Source of the DNA: Fibrobacter sp. UWB4
GTDB taxonomy: Bacteria; Fibrobacterota; Fibrobacteria; Fibrobacterales; Fibrobacteraceae
NCBI RefSeq assembly: GCF_002210345.1
Contig: NZ_MWQI01000007.1
Location: 124,001 to 188,000 of the forward strand
Direction: 5' to 3'
DNA: 64,000 nucleotides
Shown here: one piece after another, positions 1-63,512 of the stretch
Position numbering within the stretch: the stretch's first letter is position 1
How the letters are laid out: the number at the start of each line of letters is the position of its first letter
Made by a program: the position numbers and the translations under genes
Notes under the pieces: generated by a model
Told to the model about the DNA's origin: nothing
The model's input: the letters and a program-made list of their open reading frames with translations, nothing else
The model's database searches: none

Positions 1-2629
1 ATGCTTTCCCGATTTCGGAATTTTCATTGAGCGGTTTTAAAATGCGCTCCTTGACGGTTTCGCTGAGCTGTTGCGGATTCCAGTTTTCTATTTTCGGTAA
101 AATCGTCGTCAGATCCGATGCGTTTTCGATGAGACCATTGATGGAACTTTCAAGGAATGCGTATTCCGGCTTGACTCCTTTGGTGTTTTTCCATTTCTCG
201 TAACGCGGCAACATGAGAATCGAAGATGCACGTGTGAAATCGACGTAGAAGAGTCGCTTCCATTCTTCAAGTTCTTCGAGTTCGCGTGTGGTCTTAGCGT
301 GTTCACTGAAGCCAAGACGAATTTCATCGTTGTCATGATAAAGGAACGGTCCTGTTGCGGGGCGCTTGCCCTTGAAACCTGCGACAGAAATCACGACAGG
401 GAATTCAAGGCCTTTCGAGGCGTGAATCGTCATGACTTGCACGGCGTCGTAATCGCTGCTTTTTTCGACGAGGTTGCCGTCTTCATCATCGGCGTTTTCG
501 CTGTAGCTTGCGAGCGCTTCCAAGTGGCGCACAAGATCTTCGATGGAACAGTTGTGATTATAAAGATATTCGATGGCGTAATTGCCGATTTGGCGGAGCC
601 TTGCCAAATTTTGCAATCTCGAAATTTCGGTCAAGCGTTCTTCGACTTGCGTGTCGCTGTAAATGCGTTCGAGCATTTCGGCGTAACGGCGCTTTTGTGC
701 CAGTTCCGTCCATGCGTTTAATTTTTGTCGCACGGGATTGTTCGGGTCGTCGAACGCTTTGCTTTCGGCGTAGTGTATGTCCTGGCGTACAATCCTGAAA
801 AAGTCCGTGATAAGCGCTTCGCTTAAAAGGCGCCTGTTCCATGCCGAAAAATCAGGTGCGTTGATTGCCTTGAAAATGGCGATCCATTCGGCGCATTCAC
901 GGCAACTGAAAAGATTGCTGTCTTTGTAACGGCTGAACGGAACGCCAGCAGAACGCATCGCATCTTCGATGGCGTCCATTTCACCACGGCTGCGGGCGAG
1001 GATGGCAAAGTCCTTGAAGGTCACGTTTCGGTATTGTGTGCAGTCTTCTTTTTTGAAAACTTGCAATACGGTTTTGCCATCGACAAAAGTGCACCAGTCA
1101 ATGATTTTTTGAACGGCGGCGCGTGCAAAATCGACTTCGTTGATATCTTGTTCGCTAATCCAGATGGGAGCTACTTCATTGTTGTTAATCTTAGGCGGAG
1201 CCTTGATTTGCTTTTCGTTTTGCGGCGGGAGCGATGGCTCAAAATCGACGAGTTTTGTCGCCCCTTCGTTCGGTGTGAAAAAATTGCCTTTGAAAAGTTC
1301 GTTACAACCGTTGATGATTCCCGTGGTGGACCTGAAATTTGTCTGTAGCGACATGCCGTTTTTGATTTCGTGAATCGCTTTTTGATAGACGTTCACGTCG
1401 GCACTCTGGAAACTGTAAATAGATTGCTTGGGATCGCCCACGACAAAAATCTTGTCGAAAATAGCGCTGAAAATATCCCATTGCAATTGGTTTGTGTCCT
1501 GAAATTCGTCAATGATGGCGTATGTGTATTGTGCGCGGAGCCTGCTCTTGAGCAAGGAATCGCCCTTGCTCGTGTCAAGCGCTGCGCGGTGCACCGAGAG
1601 AATCATGTCGTTGAACGACTGGCATTTCTTTTCGGTCTTGTGCTTTTGCCATTCGTCAAAAACGGTGGCTGCTTGCGGAATCAAGAAATTGTTCAGCAAA
1701 ACGCTATTGATGGAAGGGAGCAATTCTTTTAACGATTTGAATGTCAAAAAAGCTTCGTAAGCGTCGGACGGCCAAGTTGTCCGAATAAAATCGCTATCCT
1801 TGAATGAAACGCCAGAAAAGAGCGTCTTGTCTTTTTCCCAAAGCTTGAGCGCATTTAAAAAATCGCTGATGCAATTTTTAGATGTTTTGCCAAATTTTTC
1901 AGACGGGTGCTTTTCGAGTGTCGAAAAAGCGTCTTGGAAAATGGCAATGTTGAGAATGTCGTCAAATGTTTTTGCAACGGCAATGGTGCGGATGTCGTCA
2001 TCGCTTAAAGCCGTATCTCCGAATGTGATTTGCTCTGGCTTGTCGAGAGGAATGATTTCGCAGTCGCCTTCACTACCGCGATAGACGTTGACGATATTTT
2101 CGAGGCTAGTTGCAACTTTGTTCGCGATGGACTGCGCAGAATCGGTCTTGAGCAAAAACTGGAAATCGCTATTGTCGCTCCACTTGTCGCGAATGAACTG
2201 TTCAACGAGATCGTGAACTTCGCTATCGTCAATCATCGACATGTCAAATGGTCTGCCTGCATCGTAGGCGTATTCCTTGAGCGCTTTTTGGCAGAACGAA
2301 TGGATTGTGAAAATGGCGGCGTTGTCTACATCTTGGTAAGCCTTGGAAAACAGCGCAAGCGTAGCGTCGTTGAGTTCTTTTTCGGTTTCGTTTGTCTTGT
2401 CGAGCTTGCGGCTTACAAGGACTTCGTCAATTTTTTTGCGGATGCGGTCTTTGAGCTCGCCGGCCGCCTTCTCGGTGTACGTGACGATGAGGATTTTCTT
2501 GAGCGGTGTGCCAAGGCTGATAAGCTTTGCGACCATCAACTGGATGGTGTACGTTTTGCCAGTGCCTGCGGAGGCTTCAATGAAAAGGCTTTTGGAAGGA
2601 TCAAATTTTTGGAGACTGAAATTTTCCAT
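1..2629 (-). CDS. recB: RecB, exodeoxyribonuclease V beta subunit (3' end outside window)
   Basis: This is the N-terminal 876 codons of a RecB-type UvrD/Rep helicase; the frame is open to the left edge, so the C-terminal nuclease domain is not visible. Residues 18-26 read EASAGTGKT, the RecB form of the Walker A loop. A DEFQDTNQLQW motif II lies near residue 370, followed by VVGDPKQSIY (motif III region). RecB is the 3'-5' helicase and nuclease motor of RecBCD, which resects double-strand breaks in the cytoplasm. The ATG lies 2 bp after the recC stop, so the two are surely co-transcribed and translationally coupled. No recD is seen in the window; it may follow to the left. Confidence 0.93.
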   Translation of the reverse strand, partial: MENFSLQKFDPSKSLFIEASAGTGKTYTIQLMVAKLISLGTPLKKILIVTYTEKAAGELKDRIRKKIDEVLVSRKLDKTNETEKELNDATLALFSKAYQDVDNAAIFTIHSFCQKALKEYAYDAGRPFDMSMIDDSEVHDLVEQFIRDKWSDNSDFQFLLKTDSAQSIANKVATSLENIVNVYRGSEGDCEIIPLDKPEQITFGDTALSDDDIRTIAVAKTFDDILNIAIFQDAFSTLEKHPSEKFGKTSKNCISDFLNALKLWEKDKTLFSGVSFKDSDFIRTTWPSDAYEAFLTFKSLKELLPSINSVLLNNFLIPQAATVFDEWQKHKTEKKCQSFNDMILSVHRAALDTSKGDSLLKSRLRAQYTYAIIDEFQDTNQLQWDIFSAIFDKIFVVGDPKQSIYSFQSADVNVYQKAIHEIKNGMSLQTNFRSTTGIINGCNELFKGNFFTPNEGATKLVDFEPSLPPQNEKQIKAPPKINNNEVAPIWISEQDINEVDFARAAVQKIIDWCTFVDGKTVLQVFKKEDCTQYRNVTFKDFAILARSRGEMDAIEDAMRSAGVPFSRYKDSNLFSCRECAEWIAIFKAINAPDFSAWNRRLLSEALITDFFRIVRQDIHYAESKAFDDPNNPVRQKLNAWTELAQKRRYAEMLERIYSDTQVEERLTEISRLQNLARLRQIGNYAIEYLYNHNCSIEDLVRHLEALASYSENADDEDGNLVEKSSDYDAVQVMTIHASKGLEFPVVISVAGFKGKRPATGPFLYHDNDEIRLGFSEHAKTTRELEELEEWKRLFYVDFTRASSILMLPRYEKWKNTKGVKPEYAFLESSINGLIENASDLTTILPKIENWNPQQLSETVKERILKPLNENSEIGKA

Positions 2630-2631
2630 GA

Positions 2632-5600
2632 TTATGCCTTCCTTTTCTTTGCGTTTTCGGTGACTGTAATTTGCATGAGGCTGCGCATTTTCTTTATCGC
2701 CTCACTCCACTGGTATGTAAAGTTGTTGGCTTCAAAACCGACATCGGTGATGGGATCGAATAGGGACTTTTTGTCGAAATATTTCCAGCAGTCTAAAAGC
2801 TTGTCCTTGAATGCGCGGATATTTGTAATGCCTGGCGTGTCGAGTAAACTGGCGGGAACGGCCTTGGAATAGGGACGCTCTGTTTCGTTACCGAATGCTG
2901 CGGTATAGATTTCTTGCAAAGTCTCTGTTGCCTTTTGCGGTGTCATGGAGACTGTCGCTGTTGTCGGTTCTGCGGTAGAGTCGGTGTTGTAAATGGAAAT
3001 TTTTACAGTTTGTTCTGCATTGGCATCAATAGAGCCTGCTCTTTGTGCAATGACGGCTAGCGCCTTGACGTAAGGCGATAAGAACTTGTCCAAAGTCGTC
3101 TTGCTGTAAGACGAAGAAACGGTAATCATCTCGGAAATGTTGTCGAGATTTTCGCTATTGCACCAGTCGAGCGTTCCCGAAAGAGTCCACTTGCTATCGG
3201 CGCTGCGGTCGATTTGAATGTCCTGGATTTTTGCTTGATAGCTCCAGGATTCCTTGATTTGCGAAACGAGATTTTCGCCCATTTTTGCAAGGATCAAGTT
3301 CTTTTGCGATTCCATTTCGGCGAGAAGCTTTTCACCGAAGATGCCGTCGGGCATGTTGCCCTTGAGCGCGGATTCCTTCTTGAATTTTTCAAGCTCTTCG
3401 GACTTGTGCGAAAGTTCTGCGGCAACCATCATCTTGAGAAGTTCGCTCTTTTGCAGAGGCTCGAAATGAATCGGCTCGAACAGTTCCTTTTCCGGATCGT
3501 CAGATTCGGAGGCGGCGAGCATCTGGCTGATGCGGAATTCGAACGGGTCTTTCAAGAAATCGCTGAGCATGTAAAGCGGGACGCGTTCGGGCAATTTGAC
3601 AGCGACGTTTTCGTCGGCGGTTTGCATCGCGCCAGTTGCAGGGTTCACGTGTGCAAATCCGTCTTGCATCATGTTCAAAAATGCGCGCTTGTTGCGGAGG
3701 CTCTTTTGCGTGAAAAGTTCCGTAAAGTCTCGAGTCTCGTCGAGCGAAATCTTTTTTTCGGGCCACGCTTCGGAAAGTCCGATTTTTTCGGCGGGCGCGA
3801 TGTTCTGATCGCGATTAATGGCATTGACCAAAAACTTGCGGATGTCATTCACGACGGAGGTCGGGTAAAGTTCAGCGTCCTTGCGGATGTCCTGATTTAC
3901 GTAGCTCACGTGGAAACTTTCGCTTGTGCTCATGAGCTGGCAGAGGAACGCGTAACGGCGCTTGGCGATAGGCGAATCGTCGCCCGGCCACGGGCGGCAA
4001 GACTTGCGGAGGTCTAGTGTGTTGTGCTGTTTTGCGCCTGGGAAGTTCATGGAATCGCCACCGATAAAGAACAAGTGCTTTACAGGGATAATGCGGTTCG
4101 GGATGAAGTTCATGAACGTGACGCCGTTGACGAAAAGCGTTCCGCAACTGTAAGCAGATGACTGTGCGGCGGTGAGAAGCGTCTGCTTGACGACTTTCCA
4201 CGAGATGCTTTCAAGTCCCGCGTCCATCTGGTTGCGGAGACCTTCGATGGCCTGCATCACGTTGTTGACGATAATCGTTTCGCTGGCGAAGCCATCGGGC
4301 GCGCCGGACATCGTGATCCATTCGCTGATGAAGTCACTGAGCTTGTCGAGGTCCGCGACTTGCCCGGCCTTTCCGAAATCCATCCACTTCTTGAGCGATT
4401 CGATGCATTCTACGAACTTGCAAAGTGAGCGGTTGTCGCTTGTCGCCATGTCGGCATACGGCATGAGCGTTTCGCTAGAATCTCCGTGTGAAAATACAAC
4501 GGGATTCTTCGTCATTTTTGCAAGGAGCAAACGGCGAACGCCGCCGAGCCAGTCCTCTTTTTTGTGCTCGCGGTCGCGATAGACGTTCGTCTCTTCAATC
4601 CAGCTTTCCCAATTGTTTACATCGTCTTCGCTGATGTGGCGCGTCTGCTGTACGACCGGATTGCGCAAAAGAGCAAAGAATGTCGGGCGTGTAATGGTGC
4701 CCTGTTCCAAAATCGAGAACAAGTTGTCCAGTACGTTTTCGGTCTGTGAACTTCTGGCGGGTGAATCGACAATGGCAAACGGAATGTGCAAAAATCCATC
4801 CTTGTCGTTTTCGCTGGCGTACTTTTTCTTTTCGGGAGTCTGGTCAAAAATCGTCTTGATGGCCGTGCGGTAATCGTCCAGTGCGGGCGATACGACGAGA
4901 ATGTCGCTCACGCGAGCGCCTTCTTGCATGAGCTTGCAGATGCTCGTGTGGAGCGCTTCGATTTCGCGAATCTTGGTCGGCGCTGCGGTCACATCTAGGC
5001 TAAAGTCTTTCGCCTTGCAATCGCTTGCGGTAAAGTCTGGCAATGTGTTGATGCGGTTTGCAATCGCGTACTGCACCTTGTGCAAAAGCGTATCGTGCGG
5101 GAGTTCGCTTGCATCGCTAATCTCGTTGGCGGATGAGTCTCCGCGACCGCTCGTGCTGAAGTCGAAATCGTAATTGGCGGCTTGGCACCAGAGCTTGATG
5201 TTGTCGCGTCCGGAACGTCCCCAGTTGCAGAGCAGCGTGTTTTCGGATTCTGCTTCTGCGCTTGTGTATTCGGGGATGTCATCGACATCGTTGCTTTCGC
5301 CCGCATCCGAAATCCCAACGGACATTTTTTCGCGGACCTTGTCGATGTCCCCATTTTTGTCGCTCCACTGTCCACTGCGTGAAATCCAGTTTCGGTGAAT
5401 CGTTGCGTTTTGCCTGTGAACGGTTGAAGTGTCTTCCCAGAATTCCATACAGGGATTCTGGATGTAGGCGTAAACGTCGTGCGTCTCGGCGTACTTCTGC
5501 AAAATTACGCGGTAAAACTGGCCCATGCCTCCGAGGCCAAAAATGAATAGCGGCGTGTTGCCTGTGTGTTCCGTGTGGAATTGAACATTGCCATTTTTGT

Positions 5601-28078: not shown

Positions 28079-29293
28079 ATGAAGAACATTTATTTGTTGG
28101 GGAGCGCGTTTGCTCTTGCGTTGCTTGGATGTGCATTTACAAGAGGCGACAGCGTCTCTAAGGCGGAAAATTTTCAGGGTAAAACAGGCATTATAGGCGT
28201 GTTCCGTCAGCCTGCCTATTACTGTGGCGAAGGTATTCCGCATACAATGACGCTTGGCGGCAAGTCCATCATCGTGAAGCCGGCCTTTAGCAGCGAGCAG
28301 GAAAATGTGTTCTTCAGCGAAATGAAGCCCGGTGTGGCAACACTTACGGAATACAATTACACATGCGGCGAAAACGAAAACAAGATGGCGCTTGATACGG
28401 CTGGTGCCGGGAACGAGCGCTTCCCGACGTCGGTTGTGATTCCCGAAAAGGGATTCTGCAAGGTTGTCATCTCCTTTATGGAAGGCGACAAGCTTTTCTC
28501 GTATAACGGCGAAATTTTGAGCGAACAGTTTGCAAAGGCTGATGTTGCCGTGAATACCGATAGCATCCCGTATTGCGAAATTCGCGACAACAGGGGTAAA
28601 AAGGTTTCGATGGCGAACCGCGATTCCATTTTGGATGTGAAATTTGCGGCTGCGGTGAAGGATGCGTCGGAAGCGCTGGAAGAAGAGAAGTTTACGATTG
28701 TGACGCTGGATGAGTACAGTGACAAGGTCACCTGGAATGGCGACAAATCCAGGCTGCTCGTGGTGACGCTCACGTCGGACCCGGAAACTTATAAGGATGG
28801 CGAACTTGTCAAGTCCGATAGCGTAGTCTGGGCCGTGAGTGAAAAGGAACTTTTGACTTGGTTCCAGGATCATAAGGACGGAGTTCGCAACTGGGATTTG
28901 AGATTCAAGCAGCTGTTTGGCGAACCTAGAACTTCCAAGGCGACGCACATGGCTTTCTTGTGGGTGAAACCTGAAGACCTGATGCGCCCTGCTTATGTGC
29001 CCGACGTAAAAGCCTTCGATATGCGCACTGCGTTTGAAGGGGAACTGAGTAACGATGCCGAAATCTCGGAACGCATGATGTGGTTCAAGAACTGGTTTGA
29101 CGCCCGTGCTTCTAAAATTTATACAGGACCGGATGCCCGTCCGTGGACGCGTTTAGGTTATACGTACGACTGGGGCAGCAAGGGCGACAAGTATGGGCTT
29201 ACGGAATTTATTGTAGTGCCCGGAGCTTCGATGGATGTGCGCTTTACGCGTAACCTGAAGTTCATTGCCAACTGGATGAAGGACCGTAAGTAA
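28079..29293 (+). CDS. Putative lipoprotein of unknown function
   Basis: A 404-residue protein starting at the ATG at 28079, preceded by AGGATGAGGA. The signal peptide ends in the lipobox LLGC (about residues 15-18). The mature part is soluble, acidic and rich in Lys/Asp, with cysteines near YYCGEG and YTCGEN. I do not recognise a domain. It stands alone between the M6 protease and the convergent trmB-like gene. Confidence 0.8.
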   Translation: MKNIYLLGSAFALALLGCAFTRGDSVSKAENFQGKTGIIGVFRQPAYYCGEGIPHTMTLGGKSIIVKPAFSSEQENVFFSEMKPGVATLTEYNYTCGENENKMALDTAGAGNERFPTSVVIPEKGFCKVVISFMEGDKLFSYNGEILSEQFAKADVAVNTDSIPYCEIRDNRGKKVSMANRDSILDVKFAAAVKDASEALEEEKFTIVTLDEYSDKVTWNGDKSRLLVVTLTSDPETYKDGELVKSDSVVWAVSEKELLTWFQDHKDGVRNWDLRFKQLFGEPRTSKATHMAFLWVKPEDLMRPAYVPDVKAFDMRTAFEGELSNDAEISERMMWFKNWFDARASKIYTGPDARPWTRLGYTYDWGSKGDKYGLTEFIVVPGASMDVRFTRNLKFIANWMKDRK

Positions 29294-29365
29294 GTTACTA
29301 GTTAATAGTTGTTAGTTACTAGTGATTCAAGAAATGAAATTCTCTAGTAACTAGTAACTTGAAAC
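29294..29365. repeat. Inverted repeat of TTACTAG words between convergent genes
   Basis: GTTACTAG and CTAGTAAC arms, surrounded by further ACTAGT/TTAGTTA copies, can form a stem of at least 8 bp. The position between convergent stops suggests a weak bidirectional terminator or a repeat element. Confidence 0.55.
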
Positions 29366-30187
29366 TCATAACTGTGGCAACGCCACAAGCACTCGCCACA
29401 GCTTTTGGCGGGCTTCTTTGTACTTGCGTTCGAATGCCGTTTCAGGATTCTCGGGGTCGAAACTTTCGCACTTAATTGTCATTCCCGCTGTATCTGTCAT
29501 TCCGGCCGGAGCCTGTGCTGAGCGAAGTCGAGGTAAGCGGGAATCACCTTTTGCGATTGCGTCGGCAGACATCGCGCGTTCTTCGTATGCAATCCTTGTG
29601 GCTTCGGCAAATTCCCGGGCGTAGATTTCCCAGTTCGTACGGAGTTCTATTGTTTTTCCGAGCGCAAGGAGCGTCGGGAATATCGGGTGCATGTGGAAGC
29701 GTCTCGTGGCCTCGCTTTGCTTGGGCCACGGGTTCGGGTAATAAACAGCATGGTACGGAATAGTCCACTGGCCCGATCTGACGCGCTCCAGGGCGAGCCG
29801 CCAAAAGTCTAAGAGTTCAGCGCGGATCCAGAACGCGTTTGCAGGGACTTCTTCGCCCGCTGTTTGCGATGGGTTCCCGGCCTTGTTCAGGCGGGCGTAG
29901 GACTTGTCTATCCCGATGACGGGAATGCCCGGAAAGCGGCGAGCGATGTGGATCGTGCTTTCGCCTGTCCCGCAGCCAGAATCTAGAATGACCGCTTGCG
30001 GCGCAATCCTATGGGTGTCATTTCCTGCATAAAACATCCGCACGAATTCTTCGACTTCCGCAAATGCTTCTCGTGTGTGGTCTGCGATAGGGCGCAAAAA
30101 AGTTGTCCGCACGTACTTGCGGACAACTTCTTCAAGATCTTTGTGCAGAGCTTCCTGGTTCGATGTTACAGAATTTGCGCCTGGCAT
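29366..30187 (-). CDS. trmB: TrmB-like tRNA (guanine-N7)-methyltransferase carrying an in-frame repeat insertion
   Basis: A 273-residue SAM-dependent methyltransferase. The SAM loop is VILDSGCGTGESTIHIA, and the TrmB marks YYPNPWPKQSE and ELRTNWEIYAREFA follow, so m7G46 tRNA methylation is likely. About residues 214-237 (GDSRLPRL...TAGMTIK) are translated from a REP-like repeat of about 70 bp that keeps the frame. TrmB relatives have no such insert after the NWEIYA block. The start ATG shares one base with the stop of the upstream lipoprotein gene (TAATG), so it is translationally coupled. Confidence 0.8.
   Translation of the reverse strand: MPGANSVTSNQEALHKDLEEVVRKYVRTTFLRPIADHTREAFAEVEEFVRMFYAGNDTHRIAPQAVILDSGCGTGESTIHIARRFPGIPVIGIDKSYARLNKAGNPSQTAGEEVPANAFWIRAELLDFWRLALERVRSGQWTIPYHAVYYPNPWPKQSEATRRFHMHPIFPTLLALGKTIELRTNWEIYAREFAEATRIAYEERAMSADAIAKGDSRLPRLRSAQAPAGMTDTAGMTIKCESFDPENPETAFERKYKEARQKLWRVLVALPQL
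29478..29547. repeat. REP-like repeat inserted in the trmB-like coding frame
   Basis: GTCATTCCCGCT at one end and AGCGGGAATCACC at the other form an inverted repeat. Inside lies a second nested TCATTCCGGCCGGAGC palindrome and a GAGCGAAGTCGAGG segment. Similar arms occur at 55685, 63482 and other intergenic sites. Confidence 0.8.
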
Positions 30188-41611: not shown

Positions 41612-41639
41612 CGATGCCCGTTCGGTGACGGGCATGACA
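41612..41639. repeat. REP-like repeat
   Basis: CGATGCCCGT and ACGGGCATGACA arms, the GATGCCCG/CGGGCATGACA variant, lie just after the DMT transporter gene. Confidence 0.7.
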
Positions 41640-50580: not shown

Positions 50581-50608
50581 GTCATGCCCGCCTTGAGCGG
50601 GCATCTCC
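50581..50608. repeat. REP-like repeat
   Basis: GTCATGCCCGC and GCGGGCATCTCC arms around CTTGA. Confidence 0.75.
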
Positions 50609-52142: not shown

Positions 52143-52170
52143 CGATGCCCGATTAAATCGGGCATGACAG
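52143..52170. repeat. REP-like repeat
   Basis: CGATGCCCGATT and AATCGGGCATGACA arms form a near-perfect palindrome between two minus-strand genes. Confidence 0.75.
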
Positions 52171-54601: not shown

Positions 54602-54631
54602 GGAGATGCCCGCTCGGTGGCGGGCATGACA
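54602..54631. repeat. REP-like repeat
   Basis: GGAGATGCCCGC and GCGGGCATGACA arms, with an extra half-arm (GGACGGGCATGA) 8 bp further. Confidence 0.75.
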
Positions 54632-55684: not shown

Positions 55685-55712
55685 GTCATTCCCGACGTGA
55701 TCGGGAATCTCC
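55685..55712. repeat. REP-like repeat
   Basis: GTCATTCCCGA and TCGGGAATCTCC arms around CGTGA, in the leader of the LysR gene. Confidence 0.75.
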
Positions 55713-63481: not shown

Positions 63482-63512
63482 GGAAATTCCCGCTCTGGGG
63501 CGGGAATGACAG
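63482..63512. repeat. REP-like repeat
   Basis: GGAAATTCCCGC and GCGGGAATGACAG arms around TCTGGG. Confidence 0.75.

Follow-up and report, generated by a model that had tools for sequence, protein, structure and literature searches.

The TrmB-like gene and its palindromic insert

The window, by which we mean the whole 64,000-nucleotide stretch of Fibrobacter DNA analysed here, carries on its minus strand a methyltransferase gene whose reading frame runs through an imperfect hairpin at positions 29478-29544. The features of the gene are as follows.

29366..30187, minus strand: gene for a TrmB-like SAM methyltransferase with an in-frame REP; 273 aa, ORF without a stop
29477..29494, plus strand: extra 5′ arm copy (TGTCATTCCCGC plus 6 nt), an 18-nt partial duplication that makes the outer hairpin
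29481..29488, plus strand: left arm of the outer stem, ATTCCCGC (8/8 exact arm match)
29495..29552, plus strand: REP element proper, long form, 58 nt (assigned from its genomic family match and from tag, tail and loop statistics)
29537..29544, plus strand: right arm of the outer stem, GCGGGAAT (8/8 exact arm match)
29999..30022, minus strand: loop 1, from FY... to ILDSGCGTG, before the SAM motif; residues ~56-63, short in the window gene, with REPs in 13 orthologues

What is the host enzyme? Pfam Methyltransf_4 matches the 273-aa product at 37 bits (cut-off 24), and the best hits in a fold search of the PDB are TrmB structures (7nzi, 1yzh and 2fca; 14-17% identity, E about 1e-8). On both counts, the label "TrmB-like" given in a preliminary description of this DNA holds. 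The enzyme is not TrmB itself, the tRNA m7G46 methyltransferase, because its score of 26.5 bits lies under the TrmB equivalog cut-off of 112.65 and a much stronger match is found elsewhere in the same genome (G000:C2:392427, 109 bits), as is a better one at another locus in nearly every genome of the genus. Orthologues of the TrmB-like gene are present in 76 of 80 genus genomes, including all 40 of good quality. Outside the genus, the gene occurs in two genomes from a different family within the order, and matches beyond these are marginal and partial. The dN/dS of the core ranges from 0.03 to 0.09 when the window gene is compared with relatives, with or without REPs, pointing to strong purifying selection on a gene that is maintained.

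The preliminary description had reported a repeat of about 70 bp. A hairpin does lie there (RNA fold of -24.4 kcal/mol, z -2.5), but the unit that belongs to the repeat family is the 58-nt element at 29495-29552, and the 18 nt at 29477-29494 are an additional copy of its 5′ arm. The element has a TGTC tag, an 8-nt stem (ATTCCGGC/GCGGGAAT, one mismatch), an apical segment of ~30 nt (CGGAGCCTGTGCTGAGCGAAGTCGAGGTAA) and the tail CACC, as opposed to the family consensus CTCC. The sister species (G001) has the 18-nt duplication as well, with both copies still reading TGTCATTCCCGC (TGTCATTCCCGC TGCATC TGTCATTCCCGC...), and a similar doubled arm is found in an intergenic copy (L019). Together, REP and half-arm encode residues ~215-237 of the protein, that is, 23 codons within the stretch GDSRLPR...AGMTDTAGMTIK, so that the earlier reading of a REP-like element adding ~23 residues to a trmB-like gene with the frame intact is borne out. 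Loop 3, the hypervariable stretch into which the insert falls, measures 54 aa in the window gene versus 32-35 aa in close relatives without a REP (G062, G080, G026), a net gain of ~20 aa. Since the linkers of the insert-free close relatives have diverged, an empty site with the exact junctions of the window insertion was not found. The insert is shared with the sister species at a core dS of 0.38 and is thus not recent; related REPs occupy loop 3 across much of the F. succinogenes-type clade.

An AlphaFold2 model built from 77 sequences (mean pLDDT 86.9, pTM 0.86) places residues 215-237 between a helix (187-213) and a strand (237-243), with mean pLDDT falling to 52 in the block 221-230. The REP insert is therefore predicted to lie in a disordered linker. 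Loop 1, in the same model, directly precedes the strand leading to the SAM motif. The gap beside the gene (window 29293-29373) holds a palindromic repeat of another family (AGTTACTAGTTAATAG...CTAGTAACTAGTAACTT), with 48 matches in the genome including itself.

The repeat family between and within genes

A strict search pattern, TGTCATNCCSGC-N3..33-GCSGGNAT, recovers 125 intact copies from the 3.58-Mb genome, in which the reversed control pattern has none. The long-form 58-nt unit recurs at 17 other genomic places with 82-95% identity, and an 18th match is partial, over the doubled arm; the arms of the window insert are indeed of the type seen in the intergenic copies. Six further family members lie in the window.

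41614..41638, minus strand: REP of the same family
50581..50604, plus strand: REP of the same family
52145..52168, minus strand: intergenic REP of the same family
54606..54630, minus strand: intergenic REP of the same family
55685..55708, plus strand: REP of the same family, short form
63486..63510, minus strand: intergenic REP of the same family, short form

Family arms read ATNCCSGC/GCSGGNAT and form an 8-nt stem with AT at its first two positions. Among 48 sampled copies, the base before GTC is T in 47 and C in one, both underlying searches having started from TGTC-type sequence; CGTC is present in several matches of a wider census of 1.13 Mb of Fibrobacter DNA. CTCC is the tail of 32/48 and appears as GGAG ahead of the stem on the complementary strand. 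The segment between the arms spans 4-6 nt in 34 sampled copies (short form) and 29-30 nt in 13 (long form). REPs nested in the apical loop of another REP also exist outside the gene (L099:1750-1797; G000:C8:50929-50976).

Do these elements commonly enter genes? By a dicodon test of coding potential, no REP lies inside a gene at the 48 other sampled loci, which partly overlap, some places having been reached by both the long-form and the pattern search. The test called 28/28 control sites inside genes correctly; flanks of 180 bp missed the window copy, which is near the gene end, and flanks of 96 bp call it coding. Five REPs that seemed to lie within ORFs (L100, L102, L104, L113 and L137) turned out to be at gene ends or ahead of the likely start. 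Some REPs overlap conserved ORF ends and give the last codons (L100:13483-13506; L123:2280-2304; L137:2633-2656), as GTAG REPs likewise do for ORFs they overlap (PMC3733652).

The wider census, covering 63 Fibrobacter records, contains 46 REP hairpins, as compared to 3.5 expected in shuffles: 19 in the methyltransferase gene (58 kb), 3 within 200 bp of it and 24 elsewhere, a ratio that is descriptive since the records were fetched around this gene and some REPs are common by descent among related sequences. One of the 24 is clearly internal to another conserved gene, encoding an EF-G-like protein (L123:3151-3174 in ORF 2281-4266). There, a single clean in-frame REP sits in a hypervariable loop directly ahead of domain III, and among the homologues compared from other species (L118, L132, L134, L137, L138, L139, L146, L149) there are probable remnants of REPs as well as tandem-like short repeats (CGAGAGACGAGAGACGAGAG; TTCGGAATTCGGAGTTCGGA). 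This second case favours tolerance of loops over targeting of the methyltransferase. The proposal that the elements move into genes is thus upheld for a few permissive loops, those of the methyltransferase in particular, but does not extend to the other copies sampled: judged from the sequences, the methyltransferase gene is an exception in its genome, and there is no general in-gene habit.

Loops of the orthologues

The 77 orthologous sequences, drawn from 76 genomes, combine a nearly fixed core with three hypervariable stretches: loop 1, listed above; loop 2, after GIDKS; and loop 3, from EFAEA to TAFERKY, the site of the window insert. By the hairpin test, clean REPs are present in 24 of the 77, only in loop 1, in loop 3 and once in loop 2. 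When the arms must match exactly (8/8), six orthologues have a hairpin in loop 1, nine in loop 3 and one in loop 2, and the N-terminal, core and C-terminal parts, about 50 kb in total, have none. At 7/8 matching arms, the counts are 13, 17 (two of these judged false by eye) and one, respectively, with eight scattered matches outside the loops that are not REP-like. A blastn-short comparison of the loops with the 1.1-Mb set pointed in the same direction at low sensitivity, and the hairpin test was used instead. By eye, further orthologues display degenerate or other palindromes, such as TGCGAGAAGCGAAGCGACGAAGCAATC in loop 1 of G024 and G075 and GATTGCWTCCCCTCTTCGAGGGTCGCAATGACA in loop 3 of G002, G021, G027 and others.

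Had all orthologues shared one conserved segment, as the preliminary description proposed to check, an insertion would be hard to defend; in fact the segment is hypervariable and mostly absent across the 77. Some orthologues have different REPs in loop 3, in the other frame or orientation, and the loops are short in outgroups such as F. intestinalis ATCC 43854. REPs of loop 1 are in sense orientation in G035, G092 and G023 and antisense, in two frames, in others; those of loop 3 are antisense, also in two frames. Elements in the common orientation end, on the gene strand, in GGNATGACA, where one frame reads TGA. No detected copy uses that frame and all use the other two. Avoidance of the TGA frame follows necessarily from the requirement that the frame stay open, and with both remaining frames in use no single REP peptide seems favoured.

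Carriers are spread over separate parts of the tree (G032, G092, G023, G035, G064, G028, G089, the G015/G083 group and the F. succinogenes-type clade). Parsimony assigns 10 changes to loop 1 and 14 to loop 3, gains and losses mixed, on a gene tree with many weak inner branches. Because the REPs vary in sequence, reading frame and orientation, with some nested in others, insertion into these loops would appear to be recurrent, involving about ten or more distinct elements. Near-identical pairs document remodelling: the stem and flanks (GGAGATYCCCGGTCA...CCGGGGATGACAATGTAGTAG) are common to G083 and G015/G098/G065 and enclose an apical part that is short in G083 and 24 nt longer in the others, and G081 has CCCGG-CACAAGG-CCGGGATGACA nested where G080/G084 have a plain loop. 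Nested REPs are found in loop 1 of G081, G082 and G093, and the net length changes are multiples of three. One orthologue, L048 (genome G035), has REPs in both loops 1 and 2, the latter being the only clean REP of loop 2 (TGTCATTCTCGCGAAGGCGAGAATC).

Origin of the inserts and known systems

How did the palindrome become part of the protein? We consider it highly probable (roughly 0.87) that a TGTC-tagged REP, one of well over a hundred in the genome, inserted in frame into a disordered connector and was kept, and that the same happened repeatedly in the genus. The element would have entered the DNA for the connector that leads from a helix to the late sheet strands, and would have been retained as it introduced no break in the frame and sat at a distance from the conserved core. 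Across the genus, loops 1 and 3, and once loop 2, would have gained REPs of differing sequence, orientation and frame; later arrivals may have nested in the apical loops of earlier REPs or exchanged apical segments with them, and old copies may have decayed to ordinary linker. We infer a process of insertion plus selective filtering, the inserts themselves being presumably close to neutral. That such inserts survive as protein, as had been suggested, is supported by the purifying selection acting on the insert-bearing gene.

As to the mover, RAYT-driven mobilisation was considered and set aside: none of 80 genus genomes has a RAYT (NF047646) above cut-off, and the two Y1 transposases of the genome are IS200-like. 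The latter (G000:C1:280990-281346 and G000:C7:68792-69148) are identical over 719 bp and have hairpin ends unrelated to the REPs.

Alternatively, the loops themselves may be under selection for change, with REPs feeding rapid diversification of substrate- or partner-facing segments in an arms race or a shift of specificity. The far higher density of REPs in the methyltransferase gene (19/46 in 58 kb of 1.13 Mb) and the juxtaposition of hypervariable loops and nearly fixed core would fit. Yet the same type of element is found in different frames and orientations, so that no particular peptide is favoured, the EF-G-like gene with its similar REP-bearing loop speaks for tolerance, and the insert is predicted to be disordered. 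We regard adaptive diversification as an unlikely sole explanation, although it may operate in addition to the favoured one. Likewise unlikely is a true hot spot, in which the machinery that mobilises REPs targets the loop DNA, or selection for altered loops favours REP capture. If so, mobile palindromes would repeatedly supply one enzyme with protein loops throughout the genus.

The palindromes could also be home-made, with local replication slippage or hairpin template switching enlarging the loops and no dispersal involved. While the 18-nt duplicated arm, the nested palindromes and the apical exchanges do resemble hairpin-associated template switching, such a process leaves unexplained why the elements match dispersed intergenic copies over their full extent, with tag, apical segment and tail all included; same-genome donors that match the inserts better than the locus sequence does were seen in part. 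A purely local origin is thus improbable, and local processes may rather have remodelled REP copies after their arrival. Least credible of all, and in our view scarcely worth entertaining, is an ancestral origin, with the segment a functional part of the protein and its likeness to a REP only superficial: the sister species shares it, but other orthologues and the outgroups lack it or have something different, and the same sequence recurs at sites of non-coding appearance. Repeated in-frame insertion of a dispersed REP remains our preferred account.

This kind of insert is already known; the novelty lies in the host phylum and in how deep the series is. Coding REPs are extended to Fibrobacterota. 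Our literature search retrieved no publication describing such elements in Fibrobacter, and palindromes go unmentioned in the main text of the F. succinogenes S85 genome paper. In-frame REP or RPE inserts have mostly been reported gene by gene, whereas here one enzyme with 77 orthologues offers many inserts in two or three loops, and near-identical pairs catch nesting and apical exchange. This provides a natural series for how repeat DNA turns into protein, for the filter on frame and orientation, and for REP movement without a known transposase.

Palindromic repeats of the RPE-1 type, studied by Ogata and colleagues, are reportedly kept in frame as extra residues of conserved Rickettsia proteins. 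RPE-1 is longer than the Fibrobacter REPs and is not known to be related to them in sequence. The likeness to Rickettsia palindromic elements drawn earlier is apt, as a dispersed repeat adds in-frame residues to an otherwise conserved protein and is absent from orthologues, with translation suggested by frame selection. Unlike RPE-1, the Fibrobacter inserts use at least two frames and both orientations, and intragenic copies are rare genome-wide. With GTAG/RAYT REPs they have in common that they are short tagged palindromes dispersed between genes; unlike those, they end in TGTC and CTCC (the latter GGAG on the opposite strand), there is no GTAG tag, and a cognate RAYT is lacking above cut-off in the 80 genomes.

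Closest are the CGTC-tagged REPs, a superfamily that includes Neisseria dRS3 and Rickettsia conorii RPE-6/RPE-4 and for which no dedicated transposase has been found (Di Nocera et al. 2013, PMC3733652). These have an unpaired tag, an 8-9 bp stem with AT first, a loop of 4-5 nt (of other length in a few species) and a tail that is mostly CCA (PMC3733652). The Fibrobacter elements resemble them in their C/TGTC tag and AT-starting 8-nt stem, in being mostly intergenic with some copies in frame in genes, and in having no RAYT above cut-off; they differ in the tail, CTCC (CACC in the window copy) and not mostly CCA, and in the common long form with its ~30-nt apical segment, to which the window copy belongs. 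By tag and stem as described, the Fibrobacter family likely falls within this CGTC/TGTC-tagged superfamily, although its tail and long loops differ. Intragenic REPs have been documented, as have genes with several inserts and, for recB in two Xanthomonas species, different REPs at roughly one site (PMC3733652). Unlike those cases, the present one concerns Fibrobacter, a host absent from that paper, and a single enzyme whose loops appear to have been hit about ten times or more across the genus.
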